Shown: piece after piece, positions 1,155-21,662 of the stretch
Numbering within the stretch: the first letter of the stretch is position 1
Layout: each line of letters starts with the position of its first letter
Source: a virus
IMG/VR virus record: IMGVR_UViG_3300050138_000019
Location: 1-22,617 of that record
Length of the DNA: 22,617 nt
Reading direction: 5' to 3' (one strand)
Made by a program: the position numbers and the translations under genes
Notes under the pieces: generated by a model
The model's input: the letters and a program-made list of their open reading frames with translations, nothing else
Told to the model about the DNA's origin: nothing
Database searches by the model: none

Positions 1155-1180
1155 GCCCTGGTCACTCCGGGGCTTTTTTT
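1155..1180 (+). terminator. rho-independent terminator of the rightward operon
   Basis: A stem GCCCTGG / CCGGGGC with a five-base loop (one G-T pair) is followed by seven T residues at 1174-1180. It lies just downstream of the DUF4326 gene. The T tract touches the stop codon of the converging minus-strand lipoprotein gene, so two opposing operons end here back to back. On the minus strand there is no comparable U tract, so it should act mainly on rightward transcription. Confidence 0.85.
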
Positions 1181-1595
1181 AATCCACGATCTTGCTGACG
1201 ACGTTCGAGCGCGCGCTCTCTGTGCCATCGCTGTTGATCGCTGACATCTCAAAGTACCAGGGGCCGACCGGCAGATCCAGGGTGTAGGTGCTGAGCCCTA
1301 CGCCTATCGCGATCATTGATGTCATAGCTATAGAAGGGCCGTAGTAGATCCGATACCCTGCAAGGTTCGTGAGAGCTGAGCCGTCCGTGTTCTGCGTGGG
1401 CGCTACCCAGAAGACCGTGACCGCGCCGATGGTAGGACCAGGGGGCGGGACGGGCGTAGGGACGGGCGTAGGAGGCACCACAGGCGGCGGGGCCGGTGAG
1501 GGGCGGACGATGGGCGGGGCCGGAACGGGAGGCGCGCTGGAGCCGCCGCAGGAAGCCAGGAGGGCTACCGCTACTAAGACGGTCCAGCGCCTCAT
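1179..1595 (-). CDS. lipoprotein with Pro-rich linker and FN3-like domain, 138 aa
   Basis: The N-terminus is a classic lipoprotein signal: MRRW, a hydrophobic run, and lipobox LLASC with Cys16 followed by GGSS. Residues about 20-58 are a Pro/Val/Thr tether. Residues about 59-138 form a fibronectin type III-like beta domain (AVTVFWVAP, GYRIYYG, TYTLDLPVGPWYFEMSAIN, then DGTESARSNVVS). Such a protein should be exported, acylated and displayed from a bacterial membrane rather than built into the virion; that localisation is inferred. It starts three bases after the stop of an 18-residue membrane peptide gene and is the last gene of the leftward operon. A role in envelope change or superinfection exclusion is possible but unproven. 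Confidence 0.85.
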   Translation of the reverse strand: MRRWTVLVAVALLASCGGSSAPPVPAPPIVRPSPAPPPVVPPTPVPTPVPPPGPTIGAVTVFWVAPTQNTDGSALTNLAGYRIYYGPSIAMTSMIAIGVGLSTYTLDLPVGPWYFEMSAINSDGTESARSNVVSKIVD

Positions 1596-1598
1596 GCC

Positions 1599-1655
1599 TT
1601 ACCGGAACAGGAAGAACAACAGGGCGATGACCAGGACGATGCCGAGCAGACTCAC
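1599..1655 (-). CDS. 18-residue single-pass membrane peptide
   Basis: A GTG-started reading frame encodes MSLLGIVLVIALLFFLFR, one continuous hydrophobic segment ending in Arg. It starts in a GTGA overlap with the stop of the upstream 103-residue gene, has GGAG seven bases upstream, and stops three bases before the lipoprotein ATG, so it exactly fills the gap between two supported genes. The composition is that of a transmembrane helix with one positive end. Tiny hydrophobic phage proteins include lysis-related and host-membrane modulating peptides, but no function can be assigned here. A longer overlapping frame exists in another phase, at 1249-1842, and is judged spurious. Confidence 0.65.
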   Translation of the reverse strand: MSLLGIVLVIALLFFLFR

Positions 1656-1963
1656 CGGCGATCTCCATGATCCCGATGATTCCGATGCCAGCCGTCATGA
1701 CTATGCCAGTCGTGACCACGGTCGTCACGGTGCCAGTGCCCGCGACCATACCCGCCGTGTCCGTAGCCGTACCATTCACGGTCCCAATCGCTGCCGGTCC
1801 AGTAGCCGCAGTTGCCATCGTAGAACCCGATGTCTCCACCATAGTACCCGCAGATAGGCGCGGGCCGCAGGATCGGCACTCCGACCTGGAAGCCGAAGTG
1901 AACGTCAGCGTATGCCGTGCCGCCGCCGAGCAGGAGAGCCGCTACGAGGAGTAGGGCCTTCAT
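1652..1963 (-). CDS. exported His/Gly/Tyr-rich protein, 103 aa
   Basis: The protein begins with a Sec-type signal peptide (MKALLLVAALLLGGGTAYA, probable cleavage after AYA at residue 19). A short mature region contains PAPICGYYGGDIGFYDGNCGYW with two Cys residues. It ends in a low-complexity tail of alternating His, Asp, Gly, Trp and Arg (GYGHGGYGRGHWHRDDRGHD). The His/Asp-rich tail could bind divalent metals or nucleic acid; this is inference from composition. The ATG overlaps the upstream stop (ATGA) and the TGA overlaps the downstream GTG. Similar Gly/His/Tyr-rich exported proteins of unknown function occur in proteobacteria. A signal peptide argues against a virion role. Confidence 0.78.
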   Translation of the reverse strand: MKALLLVAALLLGGGTAYADVHFGFQVGVPILRPAPICGYYGGDIGFYDGNCGYWTGSDWDREWYGYGHGGYGRGHWHRDDRGHDWHSHDGWHRNHRDHGDRR

Positions 1964-2526
1964 GCTGCCGCCGCTGCCGTTACTGACGGATCGGGAACCA
2001 ATGCTGGGTTCGGGATCTGCGCCGGTGCCGGGACTGGCGTGAACGCCGTGCCCGTGTCGACCGATAGCGCCGTCAGGTCAGTGACCGTCGCCGCAGCCTG
2101 TGGGGCTGGCGGAGGGGGAACAACAACCACCGGGGGAGTGAACTGCACCGTCGCGCTGTTCGACTCTGCCGAGACCAAACCGTTCGAGGTAACCGTCTCG
2201 ATGTTGTAAACGCTGTCCGCGTTGTCCGCGCCGTCGACCGTGACCGAGTTGACCCCAGCAACAGCCGTGTACTTCGCAAGCGCGCCGTCAGCGTTGGCTG
2301 GTGCGCCGTTCAAGAGAATGCGCGTCTCAACGATGTCGCTCAGTGCCAGCGGTGTCACGCCGTCGAGGTAAGTCGTCGGTGTCGTCCAGCTCAATGTGTT
2401 CTTTAAGATTGTCATGCCGTCCTCCCGAACGTAGGTGAAACCAAGATCTTTGATTGTGGCGGCAACCATGTTGTGATGGTGATGGTGATGCCGATGCCGA
2501 TGCCAACCCCAACGCCAGTCTTCCAT
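1960..2526 (-). CDS. FN3-like protein with natural poly-His N-terminus, 188 aa (or 151 aa)
   Basis: The long form starts WRWGWHRHRHHHHHHN and continues into a beta domain resembling fibronectin type III (NTLSWTTPTTYLDGVTPL, ETRILLNG, SVTVDGADNADSVYNIETVT, NGLVSAESNSATVQF). A Val/Pro linker and an Ala-rich end follow. Two starts are credible: ATG at 2526, with AAAGGGG seven bases upstream, and an internal ATG at 2415, with GGGAGG five bases upstream, which would give 151 residues without the His tract. Both could be used. No signal peptide is seen. It is related in domain type to the lipoprotein two genes downstream and overlaps the next ATG by ATGA. A terminator lies between it and the upstream Gly-rich gene. 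Confidence 0.75.
   Translation of the reverse strand: MEDWRWGWHRHRHHHHHHNMVAATIKDLGFTYVREDGMTILKNTLSWTTPTTYLDGVTPLALSDIVETRILLNGAPANADGALAKYTAVAGVNSVTVDGADNADSVYNIETVTSNGLVSAESNSATVQFTPPVVVVPPPPAPQAAATVTDLTALSVDTGTAFTPVPAPAQIPNPALVPDPSVTAAAAA
2473..2504. repeat. short tandem repeat encoding the poly-His tract
   Basis: Two six-base units are repeated side by side, GATGGT about 2.5 times and then GATGCC three times. On the minus strand these read as His-Arg and His-His codon pairs at the N-terminus of the FN3-like protein. The block looks like a microsatellite able to change His number by slippage in 3- or 6-base steps without breaking the frame. Confidence 0.7.
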
Positions 2527-2554
2527 GTGAATGCCCCTTTCAACCAGTATGCGC

Positions 2555-2591
2555 TAAAAAAGAGGGGCCTCGCCGCGCGAAGCCCCCTCTG
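2555..2591 (-). terminator. rho-independent terminator after the Gly-rich gene
   Basis: On the minus strand GAGGGGGC pairs with GCCCCTC (one bulged base) around a GC-rich loop, and is followed by six T residues. It lies 17 bases after the stop of the Gly-rich exported protein and about 30 bases before the FN3-like gene. It should limit read-through into the FN3/His-rich/lipoprotein genes, so those depend on leak-through or on a promoter not clearly visible here. Confidence 0.85.
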
Positions 2592-2607
2592 TAGTCAACG
2601 AGCTGAT

Positions 2608-3510
2608 TTACTTGCTGAGTTTCTTCTCAAGCGACCGACGCTCTACCTCATGAAGTTCTGAGTGGGTCACGAAGTCGACCGGGGCGACAATCGGAACCTC
2701 AACTAAGCACATCGTCTCCAGGAGTTCCTGGCAATGGTCGCCAAGGGCATCCTTCACGAACGAGATCTTGCACGCTACGTCCTGAGCAGCTTCCTGCGCA
2801 TTGTGGTCGCAGAAGTACTTGACGAGTTCGAGCCGCGCGCAGTCAGCGTCCTTGCGGGACTTGCCTACCGACACGCCGACGATCAACAGCTGGAGGCCAG
2901 CGCCGTCGTGGAAGCGACAGTTAGCTGTCGTCTCACCGTAGCCAGCTATGGCTGTTGCTGCCAAGCGTGGGCTCTTGATGTTCACTTCCTGACCTGCACC
3001 ATTGCCCGAGCTGTTCACGTTGTTGCTTGCTGACGCCTCTGAGCTTCCGCCCTTGCCGCCTTGCGCGCTGGATACCGACTTGCCGCCGGTGCCGCCCATT
3101 GCGTTGCCGCCGATGCCGGTGCCGCCAGTCGCGTTGCCGCCCTTCGCGTTGCCGCCCTTCGCTATAGACTCCGAGTTGCCGCTGTTCTTGACCGTCGAGT
3201 CAGACGAAGAGTTGCCGCTGTTCTTGACCGTCGAGCTGGAGTCGCCGCCGAACGCTACGGACGTTGCGTCGGAGCTTCCGCCCTTGCCGCCCGCGCCGCC
3301 TGCGCCGCCCTGGATGACCGAGCCCGCGCCTGAGCCAACGCCGTTGTTGGTCGTCGTGCTGGTGCTAGTGCTGGTGGACGTGTTGTTGTTGCCAACCACG
3401 TTGCCGTCAGCCACGTTGCCTGTACCAGAGTTGTCGATGGCAGTAGGTGTGACTGCGAATACTGATCCAGCCAGCATGAGGCCAGCTACGATTGCAATAA
3501 GACGTTTCAT
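2608..3510 (-). CDS. exported Gly/Ser/Asn-rich protein with Cys-containing C-terminal domain, 300 aa
   Basis: The start at 3510 gives a clean signal peptide (MKRLIAIVAGLMLAGSVFA, cleavage after VFA); an upstream in-frame ATG at 3555 lacks signal character and overlaps the neighbouring gene. Mature residues about 20-190 are low complexity: Asn/Ser/Thr runs, then GGNAKGGNATGG-type repeats and a twice-repeated STVKNSGNS unit. The last 110 residues form a compact domain (SPRLAATAIAGYGETTANCR onwards) with six Cys residues, possibly disulfide-bonded after export. I do not recognise the domain. The repeat region resembles surface or matrix-forming proteins. A terminator follows directly and an extended -10 promoter lies upstream of the preceding 63-aa gene, so the pair may be strongly expressed. 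Confidence 0.85.
   Translation of the reverse strand: MKRLIAIVAGLMLAGSVFAVTPTAIDNSGTGNVADGNVVGNNNTSTSTSTSTTTNNGVGSGAGSVIQGGAGGAGGKGGSSDATSVAFGGDSSSTVKNSGNSSSDSTVKNSGNSESIAKGGNAKGGNATGGTGIGGNAMGGTGGKSVSSAQGGKGGSSEASASNNVNSSGNGAGQEVNIKSPRLAATAIAGYGETTANCRFHDGAGLQLLIVGVSVGKSRKDADCARLELVKYFCDHNAQEAAQDVACKISFVKDALGDHCQELLETMCLVEVPIVAPVDFVTHSELHEVERRSLEKKLSK
3173..3235. repeat. 27-bp perfect direct repeat inside the Gly-rich gene
   Basis: The same 27 bases occur at 3173-3199 and 3209-3235 (period 36), encoding the repeated STVKNSGNS unit. Further degenerate 12-15 base GGN-type repeats lie at about 3060-3170. The array is in frame and coding, so copy-number change would lengthen or shorten the low-complexity region without a frameshift. 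Confidence 0.85.
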
Positions 3511-4701: not shown

Positions 4702-4925
4702 GACTTCATCCAGTGCGTGTGTATGCCTCGCGCCCAGCCGAGAGTGTAGACCACGGAAAGAGCAACGATGCCCCACTGCTTGTGGGAGACCGACGCCCAG
4801 AACCAGAAGGGCTGACCCGCTAGTCCGAAGATAGGAGCCCACTTTGGTAAGCGCCCCATAGCCAGCCAGATTGCAATGGTGCCAGTGATGGCAACACCGA
4901 CCTGGGGAATGATGTCAATGTTCAT
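4698..4925 (-). CDS. small membrane protein, 75 aa
   Basis: From the ATG at 4925, which overlaps the sulfotransferase stop (ATGA), the protein shows a hydrophobic segment near residues 5-23 (VGVAITGTIAIWLAMG), a middle part with LAGQPFWFW, and a second hydrophobic segment with QWGIVALSVVYTLGWARGI near the end. Two or three membrane passes are likely. I recall the pattern GQPFW...QWGI..LS..YT..W.RG from small phage inner-membrane proteins of unknown function. A holin role is possible from size and topology but is not supported by a neighbouring endolysin in this window. Confidence 0.72.
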   Translation of the reverse strand: MNIDIIPQVGVAITGTIAIWLAMGRLPKWAPIFGLAGQPFWFWASVSHKQWGIVALSVVYTLGWARGIHTHWMKS

Positions 4926-5695
4926 TTGTGGAGAGTGTACCTGTTCCAAAGGACTTCTGGGAGGATAGTCTTGCGACTGTGATAGCGAACCTGCTTACGA
5001 ACAGCGTGCAGACCAGGGGTGCCGAGCGCCGCGTCAAAGACTTCAGCGTGCATCGAGCGCACGTTCTCAAAGTCGTACACGAATGTCGGAAGGTCCAGGA
5101 AGCCGTGTATGTGCTCAAGCTCTCCAAGAGGGTTCGACGCCAGATTCTCGTACTGCACAGGCAGACAGAAGTCGCTGAACAAACCGGCGAGCGCTTCCTG
5201 CATCGCAGCCATCGGCCCGCCAATCATGCCGTCCGGTGCCATGAGCCTCGCGCACCGCTGTTCGAGCGTGAGAGAGGGATCGAAGCCGAAGATGCGCGAG
5301 ACCTTGAACGGATGACGCTGTACCTGCCGCTCGATGCTGTCCAAGATCCATGCCGGATCTCGCATAAGCACAATGACGCGCGCCTTCGGGTACAGCTCAA
5401 TCAGGCTCGCGAGTTTCGTCGTCCACATGCGCCCGGTGTCAAAGTAGGTGAGGTCGTTTGTGTCGCTGTCAGGGCCGTAGTAGCCGCGCACGATCCCCTT
5501 CAGGATCTCCTCGCGCTGACCGTCGTGCATCTCCCAGGCCAGCTCGTTCTTGCCGCTCATTGCCTGGAGCGCCGCGCCGTACAGATTGTAGAGGGGGCTT
5601 GAGATGCCGGTGCTGAACTCAGGGCACTGCCGCAGAAGTGCGGCAAGCAGCGTACTGCCCGAACGCGGGAGGCCACTGATGAAATGGATTTTCAT
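4922..5695 (-). CDS. PAPS-type sulfotransferase family protein, 257 aa
   Basis: The N-terminus is the 5'-phosphosulfate-binding loop of sulfotransferases, SGLPRSGSTLLAALL (residues about 7-21). The 3'-phosphate-binding element is seen as ARVIVLMRDPAWILDSIERQ (residues 105-124, Arg112 and Ser120 as the expected contacts). The family transfers sulfate from PAPS to hydroxyl or amine groups of sugars, proteins or small molecules; the acceptor cannot be read here. The length is complete for the family. It leads an operon of small genes and has an extended -10 promoter six bases before its ATG, with no Shine-Dalgarno, so its mRNA may be leaderless. As a phage-carried modifying enzyme it could act on host surface glycans or on an exported phage product. 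Confidence 0.88.
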   Translation of the reverse strand: MKIHFISGLPRSGSTLLAALLRQCPEFSTGISSPLYNLYGAALQAMSGKNELAWEMHDGQREEILKGIVRGYYGPDSDTNDLTYFDTGRMWTTKLASLIELYPKARVIVLMRDPAWILDSIERQVQRHPFKVSRIFGFDPSLTLEQRCARLMAPDGMIGGPMAAMQEALAGLFSDFCLPVQYENLASNPLGELEHIHGFLDLPTFVYDFENVRSMHAEVFDAALGTPGLHAVRKQVRYHSRKTILPEVLWNRYTLHK

Positions 5696-5892: not shown

Positions 5893-5908
5893 AGTCCTCT
5901 GAAGGACT
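5893..5908 (-). terminator. hairpin at the end of the tRNA operon
   Basis: AGTCCT and AGGACT form a six-base-pair stem with a TCAG tetraloop directly after the CCA end of tRNA-Trp, followed on the minus strand by ATTTG. The U tract is short, so it may serve as a weak terminator or as a 3' processing boundary. Confidence 0.45.
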
Positions 5909-5981
5909 GGCGGGACGGCAAGGACTCGAACCTTGATTGACGGTTTTGGAGACCGCGATCCTGCCATTGGATGACCTTCCC
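5908..5981 (-). tRNA. tRNA-Trp (CCA)
   Basis: A 74-nt cloverleaf reads GGGAAGG...CCGTCCC for the acceptor stem (one A-G mismatch). The anticodon loop CTCCAAA (anticodon CCA) sits in the stem GCGGT/ACCGT. The T-arm is CAAGG TTCGAGT CCTTG, discriminator G73, with an encoded CCA end. G73 and CCA fit bacterial tRNA-Trp. It is the last tRNA of the array. Confidence 0.93.
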
Positions 5982-5985
5982 TAAC

Positions 5986-6060
5986 TGGCTCCGAGAGATG
6001 GGATCGAACCACCGACACACGACTTAACAGGCCGCTGCTCTGCCGCTGAGCTATCCCGGA
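5986..6060 (-). tRNA. tRNA-Asn (GUU)
   Basis: A 75-nt cloverleaf has acceptor TCCGGGA/TCTCGGA (one G-T pair), D-stem GCTC/GAGC, anticodon loop CTGTTAA (GTT) and T-loop TTCGATC. The discriminator is G73 and CCA is encoded. The anticodon stem GCGGC/GTCGT contains two G-T pairs. Only four bases separate it from tRNA-Trp. Confidence 0.93.
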
Positions 6061-6064
6061 AAAA

Positions 6065-6140
6065 TGGGGCGACCGTAGGGACTCGAACCCTATAGAGCAC
6101 GTTCACAACGTGCGGGCGAGACCCTTTGCCTTCGACCGCC
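6065..6140 (-). tRNA. tRNA-His (GUG)
   Basis: The anticodon loop TTGTGAA (GTG) sits in the perfect stem GCACG/CGTGC. The acceptor GCGGTCG/CGGTCGC is preceded by an encoded extra G at position -1, facing C73, the identity element of tRNA-His. The T-loop is TTCGAGT and CCA is encoded. The D-stem is short (GGC/GCC). Confidence 0.92.
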
Positions 6141-6146
6141 ATCTAC

Positions 6147-6221
6147 TGGTGCCGGATCTCTGAATCGAACAGAGGAGTGGCAGTTTACAAAACTGCTGCT
6201 GTACCACTGAGCCAATCCGGC
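6147..6221 (-). tRNA. tRNA-Thr (UGU)
   Basis: The acceptor GCCGGAT/ATCCGGC is fully paired. The anticodon loop TTTGTAA (TGT) lies in stem GCAGT/ACTGC, with T-loop TTCGATT, A73 and encoded CCA. The wobble U reads the ACA codon, which is scarce in GC-rich hosts. Confidence 0.93.
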
Positions 6222-6231
6222 GTCAAACAAA

Positions 6232-6305
6232 TGGAGCGGAGCCGGGGAATCGAACCCCGGTGTTCAGTTTGGAAGACTGATGCCCTGCCAATAGGCCAGC
6301 CCCGC
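6232..6305 (-). tRNA. tRNA-Gly (UCC)
   Basis: The acceptor GCGGGGC/GCTCCGC has one G-T pair. The anticodon loop CTTCCAA (TCC) lies in stem TCAGT/ACTGA; the T-arm is CGGGG TTCGATT CCCCG, with U73 as expected for Gly and an encoded CCA. It reads GGA codons. Confidence 0.92.
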
Positions 6306-6365
6306 TATGTACAAAAACCGTTCAACAATCGACACTGTTCACGTTACATGAACACGCCGTAAATA

Positions 6366-6442
6366 TGGTCTGTCGGGTTGGCTTCGATCCAACGACCCCT
6401 CGGTTCCAAACCGAGTGCTCTACCAGACTGAGCTACCAACAG
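6366..6442 (-). tRNA. tRNA-Pro (UGG) with altered T-loop
   Basis: The acceptor CTGTTGG/CCGACAG contains a U-G pair. The D-stem GCTC/GAGC and the anticodon stem CTCGG/CCGAG are intact, and the loop is TTTGGAA (TGG). The T-loop reads ATCGAAG instead of TTCRANY, so position 54 is A in place of the nearly universal T. CCA is encoded. It reads CCA codons. About 60 bases separate it from tRNA-Gly, in which I see nothing else. Confidence 0.85.
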
Positions 6443-6450
6443 AAAAGACT

Positions 6451-6579
6451 CGGCACACGCAGAGTGATCGGCCATGTCACGATCCTTTGGACTCCCTGCG
6501 TGTACCGTCCCGGAGTTGAGGTCCGCCCTATCCCGTTCAAGGTACGGTGGGCTCCTTGGCCCAGGTGGGGCTAGCCCAC
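6451..6579 (-). ncRNA. structured, unassigned RNA segment inside the tRNA operon
   Basis: Between tRNA-Ala and tRNA-Pro lie 170 bases without a supported gene but with dense pairing on the transcribed strand. A 12-bp helix joins 6451-6462 and 6496-6507 (one G-T pair) and encloses a GATCG/CGATC hairpin. Other stems are TGGGC/GCCCA (6548-6552 with 6559-6563) and GTGGG/CCCAC (6565-6569 with 6575-6579). GGTAC at 6541-6545 can pair with GTACC at 6502-6506, which competes with the 12-bp helix. Just after the long helix comes AGTCTTTTC. I could not fold it as a tRNA. It may be a small RNA, a processing or attenuation element, or a decayed tRNA. Confidence 0.4.
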
Positions 6580-6612
6580 ACGATGCGCAACGTCAACCGT
6601 CTACCGGCGAAC

Positions 6613-6687
6613 TGGTGGACCGTCTCGGACTCAAACCGAGCAGGCTAGCTCCGTGCAAGGGAACTCCGGGTACTCTGCCCACAGCCC
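6613..6687 (-). tRNA. tRNA-Ala (UGC), atypical D-arm
   Basis: The acceptor GGGCTGT/ACGGTCC contains the G3-U70 pair that defines tRNA-Ala, with A73 and an encoded CCA. The anticodon loop CTTGCAC (TGC) is closed by GTTCC/GGAGC, and the T-arm is CTCGG TTTGAGT CCGAG. The D-arm is unusual: only a GGG/CCC pairing is visible, the loop lacks the GG pair that docks to the T-loop, and the variable region is seven bases. It could be a functional but divergent alanine tRNA or a decaying copy. It starts about ten bases after a predicted promoter -10. Confidence 0.65.
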
Positions 6688-6759: not shown

Positions 6760-7668
6760 TTATGTTCCCGCGCTTCCCCAGCAGCCCCTGTAGTCTGACC
6801 AGCCAAAACTATATCGTTCTCGCGCCTTGTAGCGCATGTTGCCGGACTCGAACTCACCCTCAAGACCGCGCTCGACTTTCTTTCGCACGAAGTGCTTGAG
6901 ACCGTCTGCAACGTCCGTCTTGATGTACCAGCCGATTGGATCGGTCAGGTAGTGATTGACGCTGACGCCGCCGCTGTACGTCCCGATGGACTTGAGCGCG
7001 TTGACGTCGTTGTCGCCGGTGCCCGGACGGAAGTCCGAGAACAACAGGCGCTGCGCCACGTACTTGTTGCCGTTCGGCACGATTATCCGTTTCGGCTTTG
7101 CAGCCATGCGGATGCCGCGCTCGTCAACCCACAGGCCGATTGCGATGTCGGCAGCTTCCAGCGCGCTCTCTGAGAGGTCGGGCTGAGTTGCGAACATGTT
7201 CGCCTGTGTGCCACCGCCCCAGATCGGGTGCGAGACTGAGAACATCGCAACGCCGTCTCCGCCGAGGTACGATGCGCTGAACCCGTTGTTCAGTACGTTC
7301 GCGCCTGTGACTTCCTTCGTATTCTGCAGACCACGGGCCAGCGACTTGCTGTACTTGCCCGCGATGGAACCGTAGAGGCCGTCCTCTTCCGCTTCCTGGG
7401 TGATGGCAAACGCCAACGCCACTGTGTTGTGGATGTACCGAGCGACGTAGGACTCTGCGCCTTCATCGAACGACACGCCCTGGCCTTCCGCCTTAACAGG
7501 GGCGGTTCCGAGACCGGCCATGAGGACATCCTCTTCATACGCTTTCACGGATGTGTTGATGTCGAAAATATCACGCCACTCTTCGGGATAGCGGTTGTAT
7601 TCCATACCGAACACGGTGTTCAGTCCGTACTGCAACTGCTTCTTGAACAAACTGCGATTCATTGCCAT
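6760..7668 (-). CDS. major capsid protein (Mu gpT-like / HK97-fold type), 302 aa
   Basis: The protein begins MAMNRSLFKKQLQYGLNTVF and continues with EYNRYPEEWRDIFDINTSVK, a start typical of gpT-like major head subunits. Other family features are GAPVKAEGQ-like and Glu-rich segments (SFDEGAESYVARYIHNTVAL), a repeated helical middle (SKSLARGLQNTKEVTGANVL) and a late DPIGWYIKTDVADGLKHFVR segment. It assembles the icosahedral shell. No large prodomain is visible, in keeping with a separate scaffold gene upstream. AAGG lies nine bases before the ATG; the next ATG six bases on is less well spaced. It is the last gene of the structural operon, directly before a strong terminator, the usual place for a highly expressed capsid gene. 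Confidence 0.88.
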   Translation of the reverse strand: MAMNRSLFKKQLQYGLNTVFGMEYNRYPEEWRDIFDINTSVKAYEEDVLMAGLGTAPVKAEGQGVSFDEGAESYVARYIHNTVALAFAITQEAEEDGLYGSIAGKYSKSLARGLQNTKEVTGANVLNNGFSASYLGGDGVAMFSVSHPIWGGGTQANMFATQPDLSESALEAADIAIGLWVDERGIRMAAKPKRIIVPNGNKYVAQRLLFSDFRPGTGDNDVNALKSIGTYSGGVSVNHYLTDPIGWYIKTDVADGLKHFVRKKVERGLEGEFESGNMRYKARERYSFGWSDYRGCWGSAGT

Positions 7669-8987: not shown

Positions 8988-10031
8988 TTAGCTCCTCTCA
9001 GCTGTTGCGCGCAAGTCGGCGCGCTTGTTGCGTGCAAACTCTCGCAGCACTGCGGGGTTCGACGTGTCTTGCCCCATCTGCTGGAGCATCTGGATCTCGC
9101 TGGGGGTGATCGTCACCTTATTGGGGTTGACGTTCGTCCGCTGCATCGAGTTTCCACCGCGTGTCCCCGAGCTACCAACACCACCTTGACCCGGCTTGCC
9201 GCCGCGTCTGCTCTTCAGGTACTCCGGGTTCACTTCCTTGCTGAACCGTTTCGCGAGCGTCTTGCTCAGCTCGGTGTAGTACTCATCTGAGTTCTGGTTG
9301 TAGCCCATCTTGTAGAGAAGCTGGTCGGCTGCCAATGCAGCCTCTTTGAACAAGGGGTCCGTACCATATGCCGGGTGCGCTGCGATCCAGGCTTGTGCCT
9401 TCGGGTTCGCGGGCTTCACTGCGGGCTGCGACGCTGCCTTCTTCAGCTGCTCTTTAGCCGCATCCAACTGCGCCTTGCGGGATTGAATCCCAGCTTTGAC
9501 GTCAGTGATCTTGTCGTCAAGATCCACTTCGGTTGCCGTCTCGCCTTCCTCGCGCGCCTTGATCTTCTGCGCCTTCAGCTCTTCGAGCTTACGCTGGTCT
9601 GTCGCGTTCAGCTCTGAAGTATCACGCTCCTGCTGCTGCAGGTCGATCTTGCTGCTGAGCTGCCCCAGCTGCGCTTCGAGTCGTCGGCTACGCTCCTCAG
9701 CTTCCTCTCGCATTCGGGTCTCGCGCCCGAGGCGTTCCTCGAAGCGGTCCTTACCCTTGACTGGCTCACCGTCCTCTTGGACCTGCTCCTCGTCAGTGGA
9801 GATTTCAAACTCCTGCTCCTGATCTATATCACCGGGACGCTCGACGCGCTCGATGTCGCCGAACTGGTCGGCCTTCCCTTTGTCAGGATTTCCCGGAGCG
9901 TCGTTGATGATAACTGCGCCGGTAGCGTCTTGCCGATCCCCGTTTCCCTGGAGATCTACCTCTGTTCCTGTGACGGAATCAGCGGTGTGCAGATCGTTGA
10001 AGCTGTGATCGTATTTTCCCATGAGGGGCAT
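8988..10031 (-). CDS. putative capsid scaffolding protein, 347 aa
   Basis: The first 90 residues are acidic and disordered. Residues about 90-205 are a long charged coiled coil (EERLGRETRMREEAEERSRR, LEELKAQKIKAREEGE, QLDAAKEQLKKAA). A globular block follows (KAQAWIAAHPAYGTDPLFKE), then a Gly-rich linker and a basic helical C-terminus. Disorder, coiled coil and a basic C-terminal helix between portal and capsid genes are typical of scaffolds, which fill the procapsid and are removed before packaging. Two starts are possible (10031 and 10022); the SD AAGGA is too close to the first and rather far from the second. The leader carries a CAACAACAACAA tract. Confidence 0.75.
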   Translation of the reverse strand: MPLMGKYDHSFNDLHTADSVTGTEVDLQGNGDRQDATGAVIINDAPGNPDKGKADQFGDIERVERPGDIDQEQEFEISTDEEQVQEDGEPVKGKDRFEERLGRETRMREEAEERSRRLEAQLGQLSSKIDLQQQERDTSELNATDQRKLEELKAQKIKAREEGETATEVDLDDKITDVKAGIQSRKAQLDAAKEQLKKAASQPAVKPANPKAQAWIAAHPAYGTDPLFKEAALAADQLLYKMGYNQNSDEYYTELSKTLAKRFSKEVNPEYLKSRRGGKPGQGGVGSSGTRGGNSMQRTNVNPNKVTITPSEIQMLQQMGQDTSNPAVLREFARNKRADLRATAERS

Positions 10032-10079
10032 GATCCTTGTTGTTGTTGTAACGCCGACCCATGTGGATCGTGAACCACT

Positions 10080-11465: not shown

Positions 11466-11673
11466 CTAACACCCTGCTGTGTATGTCGCTTGCTGCGCCC
11501 TGACCGCCCATCATTTGCTTCGCCAGGAACTTCATGACGCCCTTGAATCCTTGCCCAGTTTCCTTTGCCGCCCCGGCGAACGTCCTCGGGCTGATGTCCT
11601 CGGTGCGTATGCCGCGCTGGCGTAGGTAAGAGCGGGCCGCTCGAACCTCAGCCGGTAACGGGTGCGACCCCAT
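11416..11673 (-). CDS. hypothetical protein next to the portal gene, 85 aa
   Basis: The start overlaps the portal stop as TAATG. Residues 8-24 (AEVRAARSYLRQRGIRTEDI) look like a small helical domain and are followed by SPRTFAGAAKETGQGFKGVM and a Gly/Met-rich stretch. The tail overlaps the next gene by 50 bases. Small genes after the portal often encode head-tail adaptor or assembly factors, but nothing in this sequence identifies such a role. Confidence 0.65.
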   Translation of the reverse strand: MGSHPLPAEVRAARSYLRQRGIRTEDISPRTFAGAAKETGQGFKGVMKFLAKQMMGGQGAASDIHSRVLDEAGDKTASQLPVGGP

Positions 11674-14243
11674 TATACAGCCGCGCCTGCGCCGCCGGGA
11701 GTAGAGCCCATTGACGGAGGCGGTCCTTGATTGGTGGGTGCTATGGCCTGACCGCCAGATGGGGTGTCAGACGCGAGCTTGATGTCACCAGGGTGACGGA
11801 TCTGACCCTCGCGCACGAGTCGCGCCTTGACCTTGGCGTCTTCGCGCTTCTGCTCGTTCTTGAAGGCGGTGTCCTTGCGCTTCTCGTCGCCGTGAAACGC
11901 GAGCTGCTTCATGGCTTCCTGGGCTTGCGCGCCCTTCGTGTCCTGCTGGCTCTTGGCGTCTGCGGCCTTGGCGTTGGCTGCGTCCTCTTGCTGCGACTGC
12001 TGCGCCGGATCTTGCTGACCAGGAGGCGGTGCCTGCGGCTGAGGAGGCTGGAGCTGGTTGACCTTCTGCGCGACAGCCGATGCGATCATGTTCTGCAGGT
12101 CTGGCGGAACCTTCGTGTCGGTGGGGTCATGCATATCGAACGGCGGCAACGGTATCCCCATCGCCTTCTCGACCTCAACCTTGTACTGGAATGCCAAGTG
12201 CTCCGCAACGTGCGCCGCCATTATCATTTGGAACTGCTGCTGCAGTGCGACTGGTAGCGCCGGTAAGGTCTTCTGCATGAAGTCATTGTGGATCGCGATG
12301 TGCGCGGTGTGCAGCTGATCGTAGAACGCGCGCACCGGGGTGTTCGCCATGATCGCCATGTTCTCGCTGACGGGGTCCAGCTCCTGGAAGGCGTCGGTGC
12401 CCATGTACGCATCCACATCGTGGACTCGGAGCGCGCGCAACATCTCACGGTGGGCCTTGCGCTTCGCCTTCTCAGAGTACAGCGACGGGTCAGACGTGAT
12501 GAGCCCAAGCACTGACTGGGCCTGCGCGATACGCATCGTGCTCGACCATATGTTCGGATCGCTGACCGGGCGGATCTCGTGCGTCACGTCGCAGTTGAAG
12601 TCGTCGCCTATCGTGAAGCCGTCGAACTGCTTCGACTTGATCGGGTACTTCTCCTCGGACATGTACTCGCTGTTGAGCGTGTACAGAATGCCGAACTCCT
12701 CACCAGCCGCCGTGTGCAGGCGCTTGTGGATCGCGCTGAATACTTTGCTGCCCTGCTCGATGATCGCGAGCGTCGTGCCAACCGGACCAGTGTTCGGAGA
12801 TTCGCCGGTCATAGCCTCCGTGGTGGAGGAAAATGACTGTATGCCCTTGATGAGAAGTTCGAGGGTTTGGAAGAGCGCAGGTGTAGGCTCCTTGAAAGGC
12901 GGCGTGTAAAAACCTTTAGCCAGATCTTCAGCACTCGCGTCAATGTCAACCCATTCGCCAGCTTTATATCGTACCTCACCGGCCTGACTAAGTGACTTAG
13001 TTCTAAAGCCGCCCTGCAGAGATGACGTGAGTGAACCGTCAAGCAATAATCGGAGTGCGCCGCCAGCTGCCGCACCAAGAGATCCGATGAGATGCAGCAG
13101 ACCAAAGCCGTAGAATCCAAATCCCGGCAGGTATTTGTAGTGGACAAACCAGACACGCTTTCTGCGCTTGTCGTCATCGATCTTCCAGTTGCGGCGGATC
13201 GACAATACCTCTCCGCTCTCGCGCTCAAATGTGATGATGTAGGGGTAGGCGAACTCATTTTTCTTTTGCCCCGTTTTGTCGTAGAAGCCAGTTGGAACCT
13301 TCAACCACGGTGTGATCGTGTCCTCCGGTTTGAGCGGGGTGGACTCGTCCGTAAAGTTGAAGTCGATGTGCGTCTCACAAATCTCGTAGGTGCTGTCGTC
13401 CTCATGCCGTGCCTGAGAACGGTTGTCTGCGTGGTTCAATAGTTGACGCGGGTCTTCGGAGCCCTGGACAGAAACGAATGGCTGCTTCCAGATATTCTTC
13501 GGCTCAATGAACTCACCGTCCGCGATGGCTCGGCGCAGATCGTTGCCAGTCAGATAGTAGCGGTGCGTGTATCGGCTCGCGTCCTCAAGACCCATCGCGT
13601 CATAGGGAACAATGAAGTCCTCGACGCGGAGGAACCGCGACACGGGCATGCCGAGCTGGATGTCAAAGAAGCACTTCTTGAATGCTGACCCCGCAAACGG
13701 CAGATAGAACAGCATCTGGTCGACGTTCCAGAAGTACTGCTTGTCCAGCTTCGTGAGCTGGCGGTTCATGAATGTCTCGATGCGGTCCGCTTGATCTTCC
13801 TGGTCTTCGTCCGAGTCATCCTCGGCGACAACCTTCACCGGCCCGGTGGGCGGGAAGAGCTCAGTGATCGAGCGTGACTGAAACTGCACCATTGCCTCGG
13901 CGAGCGCCGGGTGCGTGACTGTTGAAGCTCCCTCAAATACCGTGGCATCTGTTGGAACGTCTTGGAGACCGATGATCTCCAGTCCCTTGATGAGTCGGCG
14001 CATGTGGTCCTTGCGCGACTCCTCGTCAATACCAACGTACTCCTTGAGCTTCATGCCCAGCCCGCGCCGGTGCATCTCATCCAGGCCCTCAGCCAAGTTT
14101 GCGTCGTGCTTTTTCTGGGCAATAGCTTCTTGCTTGTCTTCCTTCTCGTCTGCATCGCCCACGTCAACACTTCCGTCATCATTGTGAGTGATGTCGTCGC
14201 CTTCGTCTTCGGCTGTGAGTGGTGCGAGTCCCTGGAGTGCCAT
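11673..14243 (-). CDS. portal protein, 856 aa
   Basis: This large protein is a podovirus-type portal. Telling segments are ALAEAMVQFQSRSITELFPP near residue 115, YFWNVDQMLFYLPFAGSAFK near 170, the HYKYLPGFGFYGFGLLHLIG block near 375, and the long STTEAMTGESPNTGPVGTTL region near 475 with its helix. Twelve copies form the ring at the unique vertex through which DNA is packaged and the tail attached. The first 60 residues are acidic, and the last 130 are Gln/Pro/Lys-rich and helical (coiled coil with QEDAANAKAADAKSQQDTKG), probably a barrel or internal extension, which makes it longer than many portals. It overlaps the terminase stop as TAATG. Confidence 0.9.
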   Translation of the reverse strand: MALQGLAPLTAEDEGDDITHNDDGSVDVGDADEKEDKQEAIAQKKHDANLAEGLDEMHRRGLGMKLKEYVGIDEESRKDHMRRLIKGLEIIGLQDVPTDATVFEGASTVTHPALAEAMVQFQSRSITELFPPTGPVKVVAEDDSDEDQEDQADRIETFMNRQLTKLDKQYFWNVDQMLFYLPFAGSAFKKCFFDIQLGMPVSRFLRVEDFIVPYDAMGLEDASRYTHRYYLTGNDLRRAIADGEFIEPKNIWKQPFVSVQGSEDPRQLLNHADNRSQARHEDDSTYEICETHIDFNFTDESTPLKPEDTITPWLKVPTGFYDKTGQKKNEFAYPYIITFERESGEVLSIRRNWKIDDDKRRKRVWFVHYKYLPGFGFYGFGLLHLIGSLGAAAGGALRLLLDGSLTSSLQGGFRTKSLSQAGEVRYKAGEWVDIDASAEDLAKGFYTPPFKEPTPALFQTLELLIKGIQSFSSTTEAMTGESPNTGPVGTTLAIIEQGSKVFSAIHKRLHTAAGEEFGILYTLNSEYMSEEKYPIKSKQFDGFTIGDDFNCDVTHEIRPVSDPNIWSSTMRIAQAQSVLGLITSDPSLYSEKAKRKAHREMLRALRVHDVDAYMGTDAFQELDPVSENMAIMANTPVRAFYDQLHTAHIAIHNDFMQKTLPALPVALQQQFQMIMAAHVAEHLAFQYKVEVEKAMGIPLPPFDMHDPTDTKVPPDLQNMIASAVAQKVNQLQPPQPQAPPPGQQDPAQQSQQEDAANAKAADAKSQQDTKGAQAQEAMKQLAFHGDEKRKDTAFKNEQKREDAKVKARLVREGQIRHPGDIKLASDTPSGGQAIAPTNQGPPPSMGSTPGGAGAAV

Positions 14244-15856
14244 TAAGTTGTCCCGATGCCCTTGACTTTACGCGGTCTGAAAAGGCGGATCTCTCCAGCC
14301 TCTTCATCGAACTGTACGCCGTCGCGCTTGCGGAGCCACATGAGCCCCATCAGTAAGCAGTCGACCCAGTCGTCATGCTTGCCCATCGGGAAGTCGGCGC
14401 ACTCGTCAATGACCGGCTTCGAGAATCCTTCGTCGGGAAGATAGAACAGGCACCCCTTCTCCAGGGAGAGGGATGCGGTATGCGCGCGGGCGGTCTTATC
14501 CCCGTCTCCGTCGATCTTGACGGCGAGCACGGGCATGTCCCCTCGGCGCATCTCTTGGATCAGCGAGTGACCGCTGGCCTTCTTCTCAACCAAGATCCAG
14601 TCAGGGTTGACCTTGTCGTTTGATTTCTTTGCTAACTCTCGCAGGACCGGGAAGGAAACTTTATCCTTCCAAGCGCCGATAAGCATAGCCGCATTCCGGG
14701 TCGGCCTCTTAACTGGTCTGTCCACCATTCTACCATCTGGCAGGCGGACCTTCGCCATGACCTCGGGCGTGTAGCGGAAAATGCCCAGGGTGAGCCGCGC
14801 GCTGAAGTCATTCTCCTCACCCTCCTCGAAGGCGGTATCGTACAGCTGGATGACCTCAAAGAACTCTGGTTTCTCGGCCTGCATTCCTGGGCGCGGAGCC
14901 CACGCGGCGTTGACCCAGGGCCTCCAGTATTTGCGCTTGAGGATGTAGCCGCCGTCCTTCGTGGGGTCTTGCTGGAACTGCGCGGAGTAGTCGGCCTCTG
15001 TCATGCCTTCCTTGTACTCCAGGGTCGCCTCGGCTGTGAGCCGGTGCGGGCTCAGCAGCTCTCCCTCGCTCTTGCGCTGGTCGACGTAGATCAGCTTGCC
15101 GACCGTGCCGTCCTTTGTCTTGAGTCGAGTCGTGCAGCGCTTGAGCGCCCTGAACTCATTCGCCAGACACAGGTGGACATACTTCTTCCCCTCGGTGTCT
15201 AGCAAGTGCTGCGTGAGATCCTTCGCGCTGGAGCGCTGCGCGATCAGGATTCGGCGAGCCTCTGATGGATTGTTGACGCGGGTGCGGAGCGGGCCGGTGT
15301 ACCAGCGGATCGCGCCGTCTCTCTTGGCGTCCGAGTGGATGTCCTGCAAGTTATGCGGATCGTCCACGATGTGGTAGTCGCCGCCGAACCCAGTGAGACG
15401 TCCAGCGACAGACACGGCCATGCGCTGACCGCCTGCGTTATTGACGAACAGGTTCTTCTCGTTCTGGTCCGCCTTCAACACGATGTCGTTGCCGAAGCGA
15501 GCACGATACCAGGGGTGCTGCACAAGGTCGCGCATGCGCAGCGCGTCGCGAGTCGCGAGACCTATTTCGTAGGAGCCGGTGAGGAACTTGATCTTCGGAT
15601 TATTTGACCACACCCAGGCGGGCCAGATGACAGATACCGCCGTAGACTTCAGGAAGCGCGGCGGGATTGAGATGATGAGGTTCTTGATGTCCCCAAGGTA
15701 CACGTAGACCAGATGGTCACACAGCGCGTCGAGGTATCGCTCCCACTGGAGGTCTTCATTCTCGATGGTGTGCCAGCTGTCCCGGAAGAAGCGGCGGAAG
15801 TTACGACGACAGAGTTCAGCCTCGACACCCGTTAGTGACGGTGTGGCGAAGTCCAT
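14243..15856 (-). CDS. terL: terminase large subunit, 537 aa
   Basis: The ATPase domain shows a Walker A-like motif IISIPPRFLKSTAVSVIWP near residues 61-79 and Walker B GGDYHIVDDPHN near 159-169, with the acidic pair Asp165-Asp166. The nuclease half has the expected acidic clusters: VIQLYDTAFEEGEENDFSAR near residue 340, a WILVEKKASGHSLIQEM strand-helix near 425, and HDDWVDCLLMGLMWLRKR near 505. The enzyme drives genome packaging into the prohead and cuts concatemers. Length is normal for the family. The ATG overlaps the upstream stop (TGATG) and the stop overlaps the portal start. The small subunit lies 5 kb upstream rather than next to it. Confidence 0.93.
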   Translation of the reverse strand: MDFATPSLTGVEAELCRRNFRRFFRDSWHTIENEDLQWERYLDALCDHLVYVYLGDIKNLIISIPPRFLKSTAVSVIWPAWVWSNNPKIKFLTGSYEIGLATRDALRMRDLVQHPWYRARFGNDIVLKADQNEKNLFVNNAGGQRMAVSVAGRLTGFGGDYHIVDDPHNLQDIHSDAKRDGAIRWYTGPLRTRVNNPSEARRILIAQRSSAKDLTQHLLDTEGKKYVHLCLANEFRALKRCTTRLKTKDGTVGKLIYVDQRKSEGELLSPHRLTAEATLEYKEGMTEADYSAQFQQDPTKDGGYILKRKYWRPWVNAAWAPRPGMQAEKPEFFEVIQLYDTAFEEGEENDFSARLTLGIFRYTPEVMAKVRLPDGRMVDRPVKRPTRNAAMLIGAWKDKVSFPVLRELAKKSNDKVNPDWILVEKKASGHSLIQEMRRGDMPVLAVKIDGDGDKTARAHTASLSLEKGCLFYLPDEGFSKPVIDECADFPMGKHDDWVDCLLMGLMWLRKRDGVQFDEEAGEIRLFRPRKVKGIGTT

Positions 15857-17704: not shown

Positions 17705-18211
17705 TCAGTACCCCCACTCCTGTCCCCACTCAGAGAGGACGTCACTAATGGACTCAAAGAACGCCTCCTCGGGAGACAACTGCTCTTCATCCTCCGAGAT
17801 GTTCAGATCTCCGGGCATGAGAAGTCCGCACTCCCTGGTGTCCTCATCGCGCCAAAACTCTACCTCTGCGCGAATCTCGTCCAGCGTAGCCGGTCGGCCC
17901 TGCTCAGAGCGCTCTTCCTCTATCGTCAACTGCAGCTCGGCCTTGAGACGCCAGATCGCCTTGGCGAGATGCCACTGCCCATCAGTGTCCTTCTTGGTTC
18001 CGAGCTTATGGTCAAGCATGTGCCTGAACGCGGTGTTCATTTGGTCCGTGGACTTCTCACGTGCCCAGTGAAGAGGCTCATCCCCGTTGTGCTGCTCGTT
18101 CCCTGCGATGGCGACTTCCACTTCCGCCAGGAAGGAGTCAGGGAAGTACTCGGTCAGGTAGGTCCAAGCCTGCAGACGCTTGCGCGCCGCGTTGTCCGTG
18201 GGGAGGCTCAC
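17705..18211 (-). CDS. dATP/dGTP diphosphohydrolase-like protein (DUF5664 type), 168 aa
   Basis: Residues about 20-95 match the dATP/dGTP diphosphohydrolase N-terminal family: YFPDSFLAEVEVAIAGNEQH, then GDEPLHWAREKSTDQMNTAF, and DTDGQWHLAKAIWRLKAELQ, an all-alpha MazG-like bundle with conserved Glu and Asp metal ligands. Members hydrolyse dATP and dGTP to the monophosphate; one subset (MazZ) serves 2-aminoadenine-containing phages. I chose a GTG start at 18211, in a GTGA overlap with the upstream gene and with AGGG six bases before it. A longer ATG frame to 18265 adds 18 residues read antiphase to that gene. The acidic C-terminus (EDEEQLSPEEAFFESI) may be a second part of the enzyme or disordered. 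Confidence 0.78.
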   Translation of the reverse strand: MSLPTDNAARKRLQAWTYLTEYFPDSFLAEVEVAIAGNEQHNGDEPLHWAREKSTDQMNTAFRHMLDHKLGTKKDTDGQWHLAKAIWRLKAELQLTIEEERSEQGRPATLDEIRAEVEFWRDEDTRECGLLMPGDLNISEDEEQLSPEEAFFESISDVLSEWGQEWGY

Positions 18212-18936
18212 GTTGAGCCCTGCCCACCTGGGCCATTCGGGCGAAGGTACGCGGGCTCTTTGCATCGGTCGGGAACATAAATCGGAATGACGTGTCCAGG
18301 TGGGGCGGTCTTCAGCATCTCCTGAATGGCCTCGTCAAACATCTTGGACACATCCCTGGACTGCATAGCACCATCCTTGTCGACACCCAGGAGCTTGATC
18401 GGGTGATGGTTCTGGATGATGGTTGCAATCACGATTGGAGTGAAGGCATCCTGGTCCTTCTGTGGCAATGTTGACGGAGGGTTCGGGTCGTTCTCTACGT
18501 GCATGAAGCTCATGTTCGTAATGGTCGGAGGGACTACGCTCGGCGGCGCTGGTGCCTTCGGTGCATCTTCTCCAGGGGTAAGCGTCTCAGGCTTCTGGTC
18601 TGAGTTGTGCCCAGGTCCAACTACGTCCGGGAGCGTCGTGTCGTCGCCGGGATGATAGACCTTGGAGTCACCGACGCACATGGACATGCCGATGTGCGCG
18701 CTGGGCGGGAGCTGGTCTTGCGCCAACGCGGCCAAGCCTGACGTGGCACCCTGACAGGCGATGACGTTCGGAAAGCCGTTCACGAAGAACTTGACCACTT
18801 CGCCGGTCTCGTTGTCGAACGCAACCGTGAGTAGAACCACCTTCGCGTGCTGCGGAGTCTGCTCTTCCGAGTGGGCGAATGCTGTCGCCGTTAGGCCAAG
18901 AGCCAGAGCTACCAAGTACGTGATCCAATCTTTCAT
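18208..18936 (-). CDS. exported protein of unknown function, 242 aa
   Basis: The start at 18936 gives a clear signal peptide (MKDWITYLVALALGLTATAFA, cleavage after AFA) and has AGGAG six bases upstream; a longer frame to 18972 lacks these features. The first mature part (AKVVLLTVAFDNETGEVVKF, FVNGFPNVIACQGATSG, HIGMSMCVGD) looks like a small beta domain with two Cys. A Pro-rich linker follows, then a C-terminal region with FTPIVIATIIQNHHP and HVIPIYVPDRCKEPAYLRP. I do not recognise it. It is the first gene after a predicted promoter at 18963-18971 and is coupled by GTGA to the dATP/dGTP diphosphohydrolase-like gene. Confidence 0.78.
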   Translation of the reverse strand: MKDWITYLVALALGLTATAFAHSEEQTPQHAKVVLLTVAFDNETGEVVKFFVNGFPNVIACQGATSGLAALAQDQLPPSAHIGMSMCVGDSKVYHPGDDTTLPDVVGPGHNSDQKPETLTPGEDAPKAPAPPSVVPPTITNMSFMHVENDPNPPSTLPQKDQDAFTPIVIATIIQNHHPIKLLGVDKDGAMQSRDVSKMFDEAIQEMLKTAPPGHVIPIYVPDRCKEPAYLRPNGPGGQGST

Positions 18937-19388: not shown

Positions 19389-20488
19389 TCTATTTGACTG
19401 ATGTCGATACGATGGCGCTCGATCTCGCCGTGCGTCCGGTGCAGGACGATGGCGTGGGAGTCGCGGCCCGAGCGGTAGCCCATCCCGGCGGTCCAGGAAT
19501 CGCGGCCAGCCAGCGTGCGGAAGCTCTCGACCATGCACCCTCGAAGCTCGAACACCCGGCGCGTATGGATGTGCCCCGTGTACCAGACGCGGAACTCAGT
19601 CGAGCCCCAGTCTACTGGCTTATCCGCAGCCATGATCTCGCCAAGCGATTCAGGCTTTGTCTGGTCACCGTGCGTGACTCCGATAAGGTTCTTGCCGAAG
19701 ATGTGATAGTGGAACCTGCCTGGGCCGTCGTCAAAGGTAACGCGCGGATTTGCCTCATAGAGAAGCGCAAGAGCCACGGTGAGCATCTGGGATGTGTGCT
19801 CGTCGTGGTTTCCGATCTCGTTAATGACGCGCACAGTAGCGTGCTTGAGAAGCGCAGCTTCAATACAGGAACGCATGATTCTAACGCCAACTCGTAGAAC
19901 CTTCGGCCAGCGGGTGTCGATGTCAAGTACGTGTCCCGACTTAAGCGTGCGGTTCGCGGTGCTGTCCCCATGAAAGAAGTCCCCCACGTTGATGATGATT
20001 GCCTGCTCGCTCGGCGGTGAGCTGTCCACGAGCCGCTTCATTGCGATCTGCATATTAAGCTCTGCAACTTCGAGATCGAAGTCGGTGCCGGTCTCGGCCT
20101 TCCATGCGTACATTCCGATGTGCGGATCTCCGAACGGATAGACCGTCAGCAGATCCGAGTTGACGCGCGCCGGTGCCGGGATAAGCGCAACCTTGGGTGT
20201 ATCCGTGAACGCGCCCTTGATGGCGTCGATCAACTGTTTGGACTGCTCTTCCTGCTGGAGGTTGGCCTTCACCCACTGCAGCTTCGGCGTGCCGTCCGCG
20301 TCAAACAACGTGGACGTTGCTTTCGCGAAGAACCCAACCGGAGGCGGGAAGTGCCCGCACTCGGGAAGGTTCGCGATCACTTCATTGACACCGGACTTGC
20401 TGACCCCCATCTCTTTCGCGATGGCTCTCCCAGACTTACCTTCGGATCTCAGCTTCGCAATCTTCGCACGGTCGAGGGGCTTCTTCAT
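19385..20488 (-). CDS. HTH-calcineurin-like metallophosphoesterase fusion, 367 aa
   Basis: Residues 5-40 form a resolvase-type helix-turn-helix (IAKLRSEGKSGRAIAKEMGV, SKSGVNEVI). After a linker, residues about 112-367 are a calcineurin-like metallophosphoesterase with all metal motifs: FGDPHIG (Asp121, His123), VGDFFHG (Asp170), GNHDE (Asn227, His228, Asp229), THGDQ (His273) and TGHIH (His306, His308). The family cleaves phosphodiesters or phosphomonoesters, often of DNA. The attached DNA-binding head suggests action on DNA at chosen sites or autoregulation; this is inference. It lies between the small terminase (ATGA overlap) and an HNH nuclease. Confidence 0.87.
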   Translation of the reverse strand: MKKPLDRAKIAKLRSEGKSGRAIAKEMGVSKSGVNEVIANLPECGHFPPPVGFFAKATSTLFDADGTPKLQWVKANLQQEEQSKQLIDAIKGAFTDTPKVALIPAPARVNSDLLTVYPFGDPHIGMYAWKAETGTDFDLEVAELNMQIAMKRLVDSSPPSEQAIIINVGDFFHGDSTANRTLKSGHVLDIDTRWPKVLRVGVRIMRSCIEAALLKHATVRVINEIGNHDEHTSQMLTVALALLYEANPRVTFDDGPGRFHYHIFGKNLIGVTHGDQTKPESLGEIMAADKPVDWGSTEFRVWYTGHIHTRRVFELRGCMVESFRTLAGRDSWTAGMGYRSGRDSHAIVLHRTHGEIERHRIDISQIE

Positions 20489-21267: not shown

Positions 21268-21662
21268 AGCGGCGCTCCTCCGGTCATGTAGTTGAGATAG
21301 CTCTCGCGGGCTCGCTCGAACCCTGGGCAAACGTCAGCGTAGTAGTTCTTGATGGTCATGTTTCCGGCGAACACGACTTGGTCAGCTGAGACCTTGCCGC
21401 CCTTCGAGCGCTTCATCTCGAAGAACGCACCGTGGTACTTGCCTACCGGGATCGCCAGGAACAGATCGAACGCGCCGGGTGCGAGCCCCTGCTTCTTCAG
21501 CTGAGCCATCTGTGCCGCGCGCCGCCCAGCGCTACCAGCAAGGTGCGCTCCATTCGGGATCGCGATGACCCACGGATCGTGGCGCATCGTTTGGAGATAC
21601 GCAACGAACAGAGCCTGCTCGTCCTTCTCCAATAAAATCTTGGGTTGGTACAAAAGCCTCAT
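21252..21662 (-). CDS. VRR-NUC domain nuclease, 136 aa
   Basis: This is a stand-alone VRR-NUC protein, the phage type of a PD-(D/E)xK nuclease fold. Visible motifs are Glu in LLEKDEQALFVAYLQ, AIPNGAHLAGSAGRRAAQMA, the catalytic Asp in GLAPGAFDLFLAIP, the E-x-K pair in GAFFEMKRSKGG, and Gln in VSADQ. Such enzymes cut structured or branched DNA, including Holliday-junction-like forms, and may resolve replication intermediates before packaging. The length is typical of phage members. The ATG overlaps the upstream stop (ATGA), and the 3' end contains the SD of the small terminase. Confidence 0.88.
   Translation of the reverse strand: MRLLYQPKILLEKDEQALFVAYLQTMRHDPWVIAIPNGAHLAGSAGRRAAQMAQLKKQGLAPGAFDLFLAIPVGKYHGAFFEMKRSKGGKVSADQVVFAGNMTIKNYYADVCPGFERARESYLNYMTGGAPLWDKA

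Follow-up and report, generated by a model that had tools for sequence, protein, structure and literature searches.

Phage-borne sets of exported proteins are already a familiar kind of cargo. The curli genes of pelagiphages have been proposed to serve in superinfection defence (PMC9599517), and whether phage curli act in aggregation and exclusion or in lysis is debated (PMC9599517, PMC9004378). Related to this is the exported protein family phrog_20531, a group of hypothetical proteins whose members include JJJA_0025 of phage JWDelta, gp45 of HTVC023P, gp24 of HTVC202P, gp46 of HTVC033P and Mosig_00202. Here, we analysed a virus record of 22,617 bases (IMGVR_UViG_3300050138_000019; hereafter, the window), which is a fragment of an uncultured tailed phage. 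Five open reading frames (ORFs) on its minus strand, namely gene A, gene B, gene C, an 18-residue membrane peptide and gene D, come last in the late operon, and an initial annotation had put forward, as a plausible reading, one coordinated module directed to the host envelope. We found that the cluster consists of A plus a separate, translationally coupled unit of four genes (B, C, the peptide and D). The simplest reading is that these are two adjacent pieces of independent accessory cargo, a mosaic and not a conserved system. We give a probability of roughly 55% to the reading that this accessory cargo is made late and acts in the envelope of the infected cell.

Two pieces in one cluster

All five ORFs were present on the minus strand, and the junctions between the last four were as the initial annotation had described them. 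B and C overlap by ATGA (1960-1963), C and the peptide overlap by GTGA (1652-1655), and the peptide and D are separated by a gap of 3 bases. The codon scores, taken from the codon usage of the window's other phage genes, were positive for A, the core of B, C, the peptide and D in their own frames, whereas the two alternative frames gave mostly negative values. Even the short peptide, with a third-position GC content of 0.94, reached +9.9, and its alternative frames gave -16.5 and -5.3. The coding frames of these five genes are real. What did not stand of the five-gene cluster was its unity and one of its starts: a terminator sets A apart, and the His-rich N-terminus of B is questionable.

The intrinsic terminator after A (2563..2587, minus) has an 11-bp stem with 8 GC pairs, followed by a U-run. 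Since this strong terminator lies between A and B, A is a unit separate from B-C-peptide-D. The neighbourhood was also compared across other records. A D-type FN3 domain was found in none of the 48 viral records with an A relative, in a search in which two positive controls matched. Conversely, no A relative was found in the 28 records carrying an FN3 protein or belonging to the same capsid lineage; this search had no positive control, and the same query matched one genome elsewhere. Many of the records compared are fragments, so that single absences weigh little. Furthermore, among 80 loci with capsid relatives, those that were long enough carry ordinary tail-type genes 3' of the capsid gene and no A family. 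The profile searches that the initial annotation had suggested therefore found A and D together in no other record, fragmentary as these are, and this is the outcome that it had named as contrary to its own module. The lack of linkage across records, together with the A/B terminator, gives no support to a coordinated five-gene module and points to two separate cargo pieces, and the 0/28 and 0/48 co-occurrence makes both parts look like mobile cargo.

Gene A and its family

Gene A (2608..3510, minus; codon score +102.7) encodes a protein of 300 amino acids with a signal peptide (MKRLIAIVAGLMLAGSVFA), a Gly/Ser/Asn/Thr-rich stretch and a C-terminal domain. Its six Cys residues all fall inside the last third, and the description of A as an exported Gly/Ser/Asn-rich protein with a six-Cys end domain was thus confirmed. 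Searches with the whole protein found no relatives, either by tblastn against 50,697 phage records or by a single-protein scan of viral contigs. Only the isolated Cys domain, searched at a permissive E value, matched hypothetical proteins from pelagiphages and from JWDelta, an N4-like phage of Achromobacter. The pelagiphage matches belong to phrog_20531, and the phrog_20531 model spans JWDelta JJJA_0025 end to end. A profile of five sequences, built without the window, gave A 30.8 bits compared to 8.6 bits for the best of 2000 shuffles, a score that may be inflated since the five sequences were chosen by weak similarity to A. An enlarged profile of 77 relatives gave 39.2 bits (E 4.7e-10). The phrog_20531 model itself did not match A at E values up to 1, and membership runs via the wider family only. 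Judged by these profile scores and by the invariant D..C..C..C that it keeps, the end domain of A (2743..2958, minus) is classed as a divergent member of a phrog_20531-like phage family.

The alignment-based search for A worked where the single-protein scan had failed, and one conserved pattern recovered at least 142 related loci among viral contigs. Nearly all of the A relatives listed have an N-terminal signal-like segment and a Thr-, Asn-, Ser- or Gly-rich stretch before the domain. The genes downstream of them usually encode a large exported protein followed by a small membrane/coiled-coil protein. These usual partners are missing from the window, where A is followed instead by the terminator and the B-C-peptide-D unit. 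Only 1 of 147 Steroidobacter-order genomes carries the A family, on a contig fragment, and the family is therefore not a general host gene.

A recurrent neighbourhood of the A relatives, absent from the readings of the initial annotation, is formed by lysis genes. Of the 45 A-family records searched, 16 had a recognised lysozyme or M15 endolysin. In 13 of these 16 records, to which this proximity test was limited, no more than 4 kb separates the A relative from the endolysin, whereas random positions would be expected to give 5.9 (P 5e-5). Moreover, Rz-like genes stand downstream of A relatives in loci L054 and L061. The A relative of L061 precedes an Rz-like i-spanin and its lipoprotein partner (9295-10036), with two genes in between that encode a large exported partner and a membrane/coiled-coil protein. 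In L013, the A relative comes after a lysozyme and a membrane (holin-like) protein. The A family is thus widespread, very common, exported and statistically tied to lysis genes.

Another arrangement was seen in nine viral loci, described as freshwater (L010, L014, L015, L020, L021, L025, L034, L041 and L047), in which several exported proteins are encoded in a row after the A relative, the first two having 278-307 and 165-167 amino acids. The structure model of the 165-167-residue protein, with a predicted local distance difference test (pLDDT) score of 76, showed a weak likeness to the adhesins and pilins SdrE, CfaB, CsuA/B and FimG (TM about 0.3-0.45). In eight of the nine loci, a chaperone-like exported protein of 123-128 amino acids and another exported protein come next. 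As a rather speculative generalisation, the A family may be an element that travels with lysis genes and swaps its partner sets (a large exported protein with a membrane/coiled-coil protein, chains of pilin-like proteins or, in the window, the unit with the FN3 lipoprotein), and that would provide interchangeable envelope remodelling late in infection of gram-negative hosts.

The four-gene unit and its genomic setting

Gene B (1960..2526, minus) encodes an FN3-like protein with a Pro/Ala-rich tail. The initial annotation had described it as His-rich and FN3-like; the second part held, weakly and above chance, whereas the first is in doubt. The codons from 2526 to 2470 score -7.2 in the B frame and +8.8 in an overlapping frame (MKGAFTWKTGVGVGIGIGITITITTW), and the B frame turns coding-like only past 2470. 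Since codon usage in this segment prefers another frame, the His-rich start is doubtful. The overlapping ORF, B0 (2412..2543, minus), has a TTG start and encodes 43 amino acids with a Gly/Ile/Thr-rich hydrophobic stretch, as seen from codon scores and hydropathy. Its first half is coding-like, and its stop overlaps ATG 2415 by ATGA. This ATG is preceded by the Shine-Dalgarno sequence GGGAGG and has the better ribosome site. The His-rich N-terminus is therefore probably not real, and the best candidate start is ATG 2415, giving a protein of 151 amino acids without an export signal of its own. The conflict at 2526-2470 may reflect an overlapping small gene, an assembly frameshift or a real but unusual start. 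The putative FN3 domain of B (2149..2397, minus) scored 17.5-18.5 bits with a bacterial FN3 profile, compared to 9.4 bits for the best of 3000 shuffles, and B weakly matched FN3 proteins of Steroidobacter genomes (E 0.005-0.04). From the profile score and these weak matches, B appears to be a divergent FN3 protein. No match to B was found by tblastn among the phage records.

Gene C (1652..1963, minus) encodes a His/Gly/Tyr-rich protein of 103 amino acids, and the prediction of its export was borne out by a signal peptide (MKALLLVAALLLGGGTAYA). No relatives of C were found in Pfam, in PHROG or by tblastn against the phage records, and C was absent from the matches in 97 Steroidobacter-order genomes, a search made without a positive control. 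The 18-residue peptide (MSLLGIVLVIALLFFLFR; 1599..1655, minus) starts with GTG and has one hydrophobic segment.

Gene D (1179..1595, minus) encodes a protein of 138 amino acids with the lipobox LLASC, a Pro-rich linker and a C-terminal FN3 domain (1182..1430, minus). The modified Cys is residue 16 and is followed by Gly, which by the Lol rule predicts outer-membrane sorting. With the FN3 hidden Markov model, D scored 103 bits, and the claim of an FN3 lipoprotein was upheld. Pfam fn3 does not match D itself, but the viral relatives in L092, L093 and L095 pass its cut-off. The FN3 domain of D is about 45-56% identical to the closest C-terminal FN3 domains of gammaproteobacterial exported proteins. 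D-type FN3 was found in 194 bacterial loci, mostly of Steroidobacteraceae, Woeseiaceae, Nevskiaceae and other gammaproteobacteria. A simple pattern detected a lipobox in 43 of 97 bacterial FN3 proteins; many of them have a low-complexity linker and carry the FN3 domain at the extreme C-terminus. D thus looks like a short version of this bacterial lipobox-linker-FN3 plan, and its similarity is no more than a hint that the host, or the source of the gene, is gammaproteobacterial.

As for viral relatives of D, none were found by tblastn against the phage records or by the single-protein scan of viral contigs. The single-protein scans for A and D rest on exact 8-residue patterns, to which their failure is probably due. 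A hand-made degenerate FN3 pattern recovered six viral contigs. The FN3 relatives in L093 and L094 are exported, the latter lying 0.5 kb downstream of a terminase-like gene, and the exported relative in L095 lies just upstream of terminase genes. The exported FN3 gene of L092 is flanked by a lysozyme-type gene on one side and by a gene for a membrane (holin-like) protein on the other. A Cas5a match in the NCBIfam/PADLOC scans (E 0.014), covering the Pro-rich part of D, was taken as chance. Two kinds of spanin were also considered and rejected for the window. The neighbour of D is an 18-residue peptide and not an i-spanin with one transmembrane segment and a coiled coil, which does not fit a two-component spanin. 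D ends with SNVVSKIVD and has its strongest hydrophobic segment in the signal, so that it lacks the C-terminal transmembrane segment of a unimolecular spanin.

The remaining genes define the phage. The small terminase (20485-21330), the large terminase (14243-15856), the portal (11673-14243) and the major capsid protein (6760-7668) are all encoded on the minus strand. The capsid protein shares 52% identity with its counterpart in Roseobacter phage CRP-902, where it is annotated as Mu gpT-like, and 46% with that of pelagiphage HTVC023P. The phage is podovirus-like with a gpT-type capsid and is related to HTVC023P and CRP-901. Searches of viral contigs for terminase relatives returned one short contig only, which ends before the cluster. 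In the 3' direction, the capsid gene is followed by a terminator, six tRNA genes, a second terminator, a sulfotransferase gene, small ORFs and the gene A cluster. The tRNA genes (Trp, Asn, Thr, Gly, Pro and Ala; 5908-6687, minus) lie directly 3' of the capsid gene, in the place that decoration and tail genes occupy in related phages. The tail genes must fall outside the window. The sulfotransferase-family gene (4922-5695, minus; Pfam PF13469, E 2e-16) lies immediately before the small ORFs found upstream of A. On the other side, a terminator-like hairpin (1154-1174) lies between D and convergent plus-strand genes, among them one for a DUF4326 protein (780-1124, plus; E 9e-25). Another gene for a signal-peptide protein (MKDWITYLVALALGLTATAFA) lies among the packaging genes (18208-18936, minus), so that exported proteins are not limited to the A-D cluster.

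Roles in the envelope and known systems

The signal peptides, the lipobox with its Gly and the homology of D to exported and lipid-anchored gammaproteobacterial proteins support the targeting to the host envelope that had been claimed for the cluster. We propose that the proteins would be made late in infection and carried by the Sec/Lol route into the periplasm and the outer membrane of the infected cell. The first part, A, would bring a divergent member of a widespread exported phage family, an extended and probably disulfide-stabilised protein. The second part, the B-C-peptide-D unit, would end in an outer-membrane lipoprotein that presents one host-like FN3 domain. The effect would be an altered envelope of the doomed cell, giving either surface masking or adhesion, which may also limit re-adsorption, or help in the failure of the outer membrane at lysis.

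Several points weigh against this accessory envelope role. The late timing is inferred from position only, and the window is a 22.6 kb fragment. No close relative spanning the whole cluster was found, which bears on the conservation of B, C and the peptide. Lysis genes were not recognised in the window, and the link of A to lysis comes from other phages. Moreover, the end domain of A was modelled, at low confidence (pLDDT 63), as a beta-hairpin plus helices, and the fold search with this model gave no significant match to any solved fold.

An alternative reading, which we regard as tentative, is that the region is an accessory to lysis, in which A, perhaps with D and the membrane peptide, would destabilise or bridge the outer membrane after the endolysin in a spanin-like manner. 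The clustering of A relatives with endolysins (13/16 within 4 kb), the Rz-like/lipoprotein pair of L061 and the lysozyme and holin-like protein of L013 argue for it, as do the lipobox and Pro-rich linker of D, which resemble those of o-spanins, and the exported FN3 protein adjoining a lysozyme-type gene in L092. However, no endolysin, holin or i-spanin was recognised in the window. A periplasmic coiled coil is missing from the peptide, and D lacks a membrane segment at its C-terminus. In addition, unrelated cargo is commonly inserted in the neighbourhood of lysis genes.

It is likewise possible, if somewhat doubtful, that the proteins form a module for surface exclusion or adhesion, coating the infected cell and thereby blocking re-adsorption or making cells stick. 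The export signals and the outer-membrane lipoprotein with its host-like FN3 domain would suit such a role, and the nine freshwater loci, with their chains of exported proteins after the A relative and one weakly pilin- or adhesin-like fold, are consistent with it. Precedents are given by the pelagiphage curli genes (PMC9599517) and the Ltp lipoproteins (PMC3952083). Nevertheless, superinfection exclusion, one of the roles put forward initially, received no direct support, since no exclusion or defence family, including exclusion lipoproteins of the Ltp, Llp or Cor type, was matched in PADLOC, PHROG, Pfam or NCBIfam. A and D are, furthermore, unlinked in other phages. In addition, exclusion genes tend to be early or lysogenic, and the present genes come last in the late region.

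Virions often carry Ig-like and FN3 domains, and B from ATG 2415 lacks an export signal. Decoration proteins have been reviewed (PMC7602432). A role of the FN3 proteins in decorating capsid or tail, with incidental signal-like N-termini, is nevertheless improbable: although the Big_2 protein of JWAlpha/JWDelta is found in the virion and encoded outside the structural cluster (PMC3915230), all other examined JWDelta virion bands came from complement-strand structural genes (PMC3915230), the JWDelta A relative lies on the opposite strand, A, C and D carry clear export signals, and the closest relatives of D are cellular exported proteins.

Within the accessory envelope role, the lysis neighbourhood favours lysis for A and the likeness to host lipoproteins favours surface display for D, and the data do not decide between them. 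The window itself is ordinary mosaic cargo, in which D is a case of a phage carrying a lipoprotein built like gammaproteobacterial ones. Of greater interest are the size of the A family and its linkage to lysis genes. If the proposed roles are true, the family or the lipoprotein would add a component to phage lysis of gram-negative cells or to the late control of the infected-cell surface.

Compared with known systems, the window shares with the curli (type VIII secretion) genes of pelagiphages and of the methylophage Melnitz a group of exported envelope proteins carried by a phage. None of A, B, C and D has a Pfam or NCBIfam match to CsgG, CsgF or curlin, and homology to phage curli is absent. 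As in Rz/Rz1 spanins, a Pro-rich outer-membrane lipoprotein is translated beside a membrane protein, but a periplasmic coiled-coil partner is lacking and D bears an FN3 domain. The Steroidobacteraceae and other gammaproteobacterial FN3 proteins resemble D in that many have a lipobox, a Gly/Pro/Ser-rich linker and an extreme C-terminal FN3 domain; they are mostly about 200-700 amino acids long, whereas D has only 138. The members of phrog_20531 are like A in being exported, in their low-complexity stretch and in the C-terminal invariant D..C..C..C with G-x-S-x-G. They are only 23-32% identical to A, which has two extra Cys residues and is without the usual partners. In HTVC023P, as in the window, the family gene is located downstream of the capsid gene.

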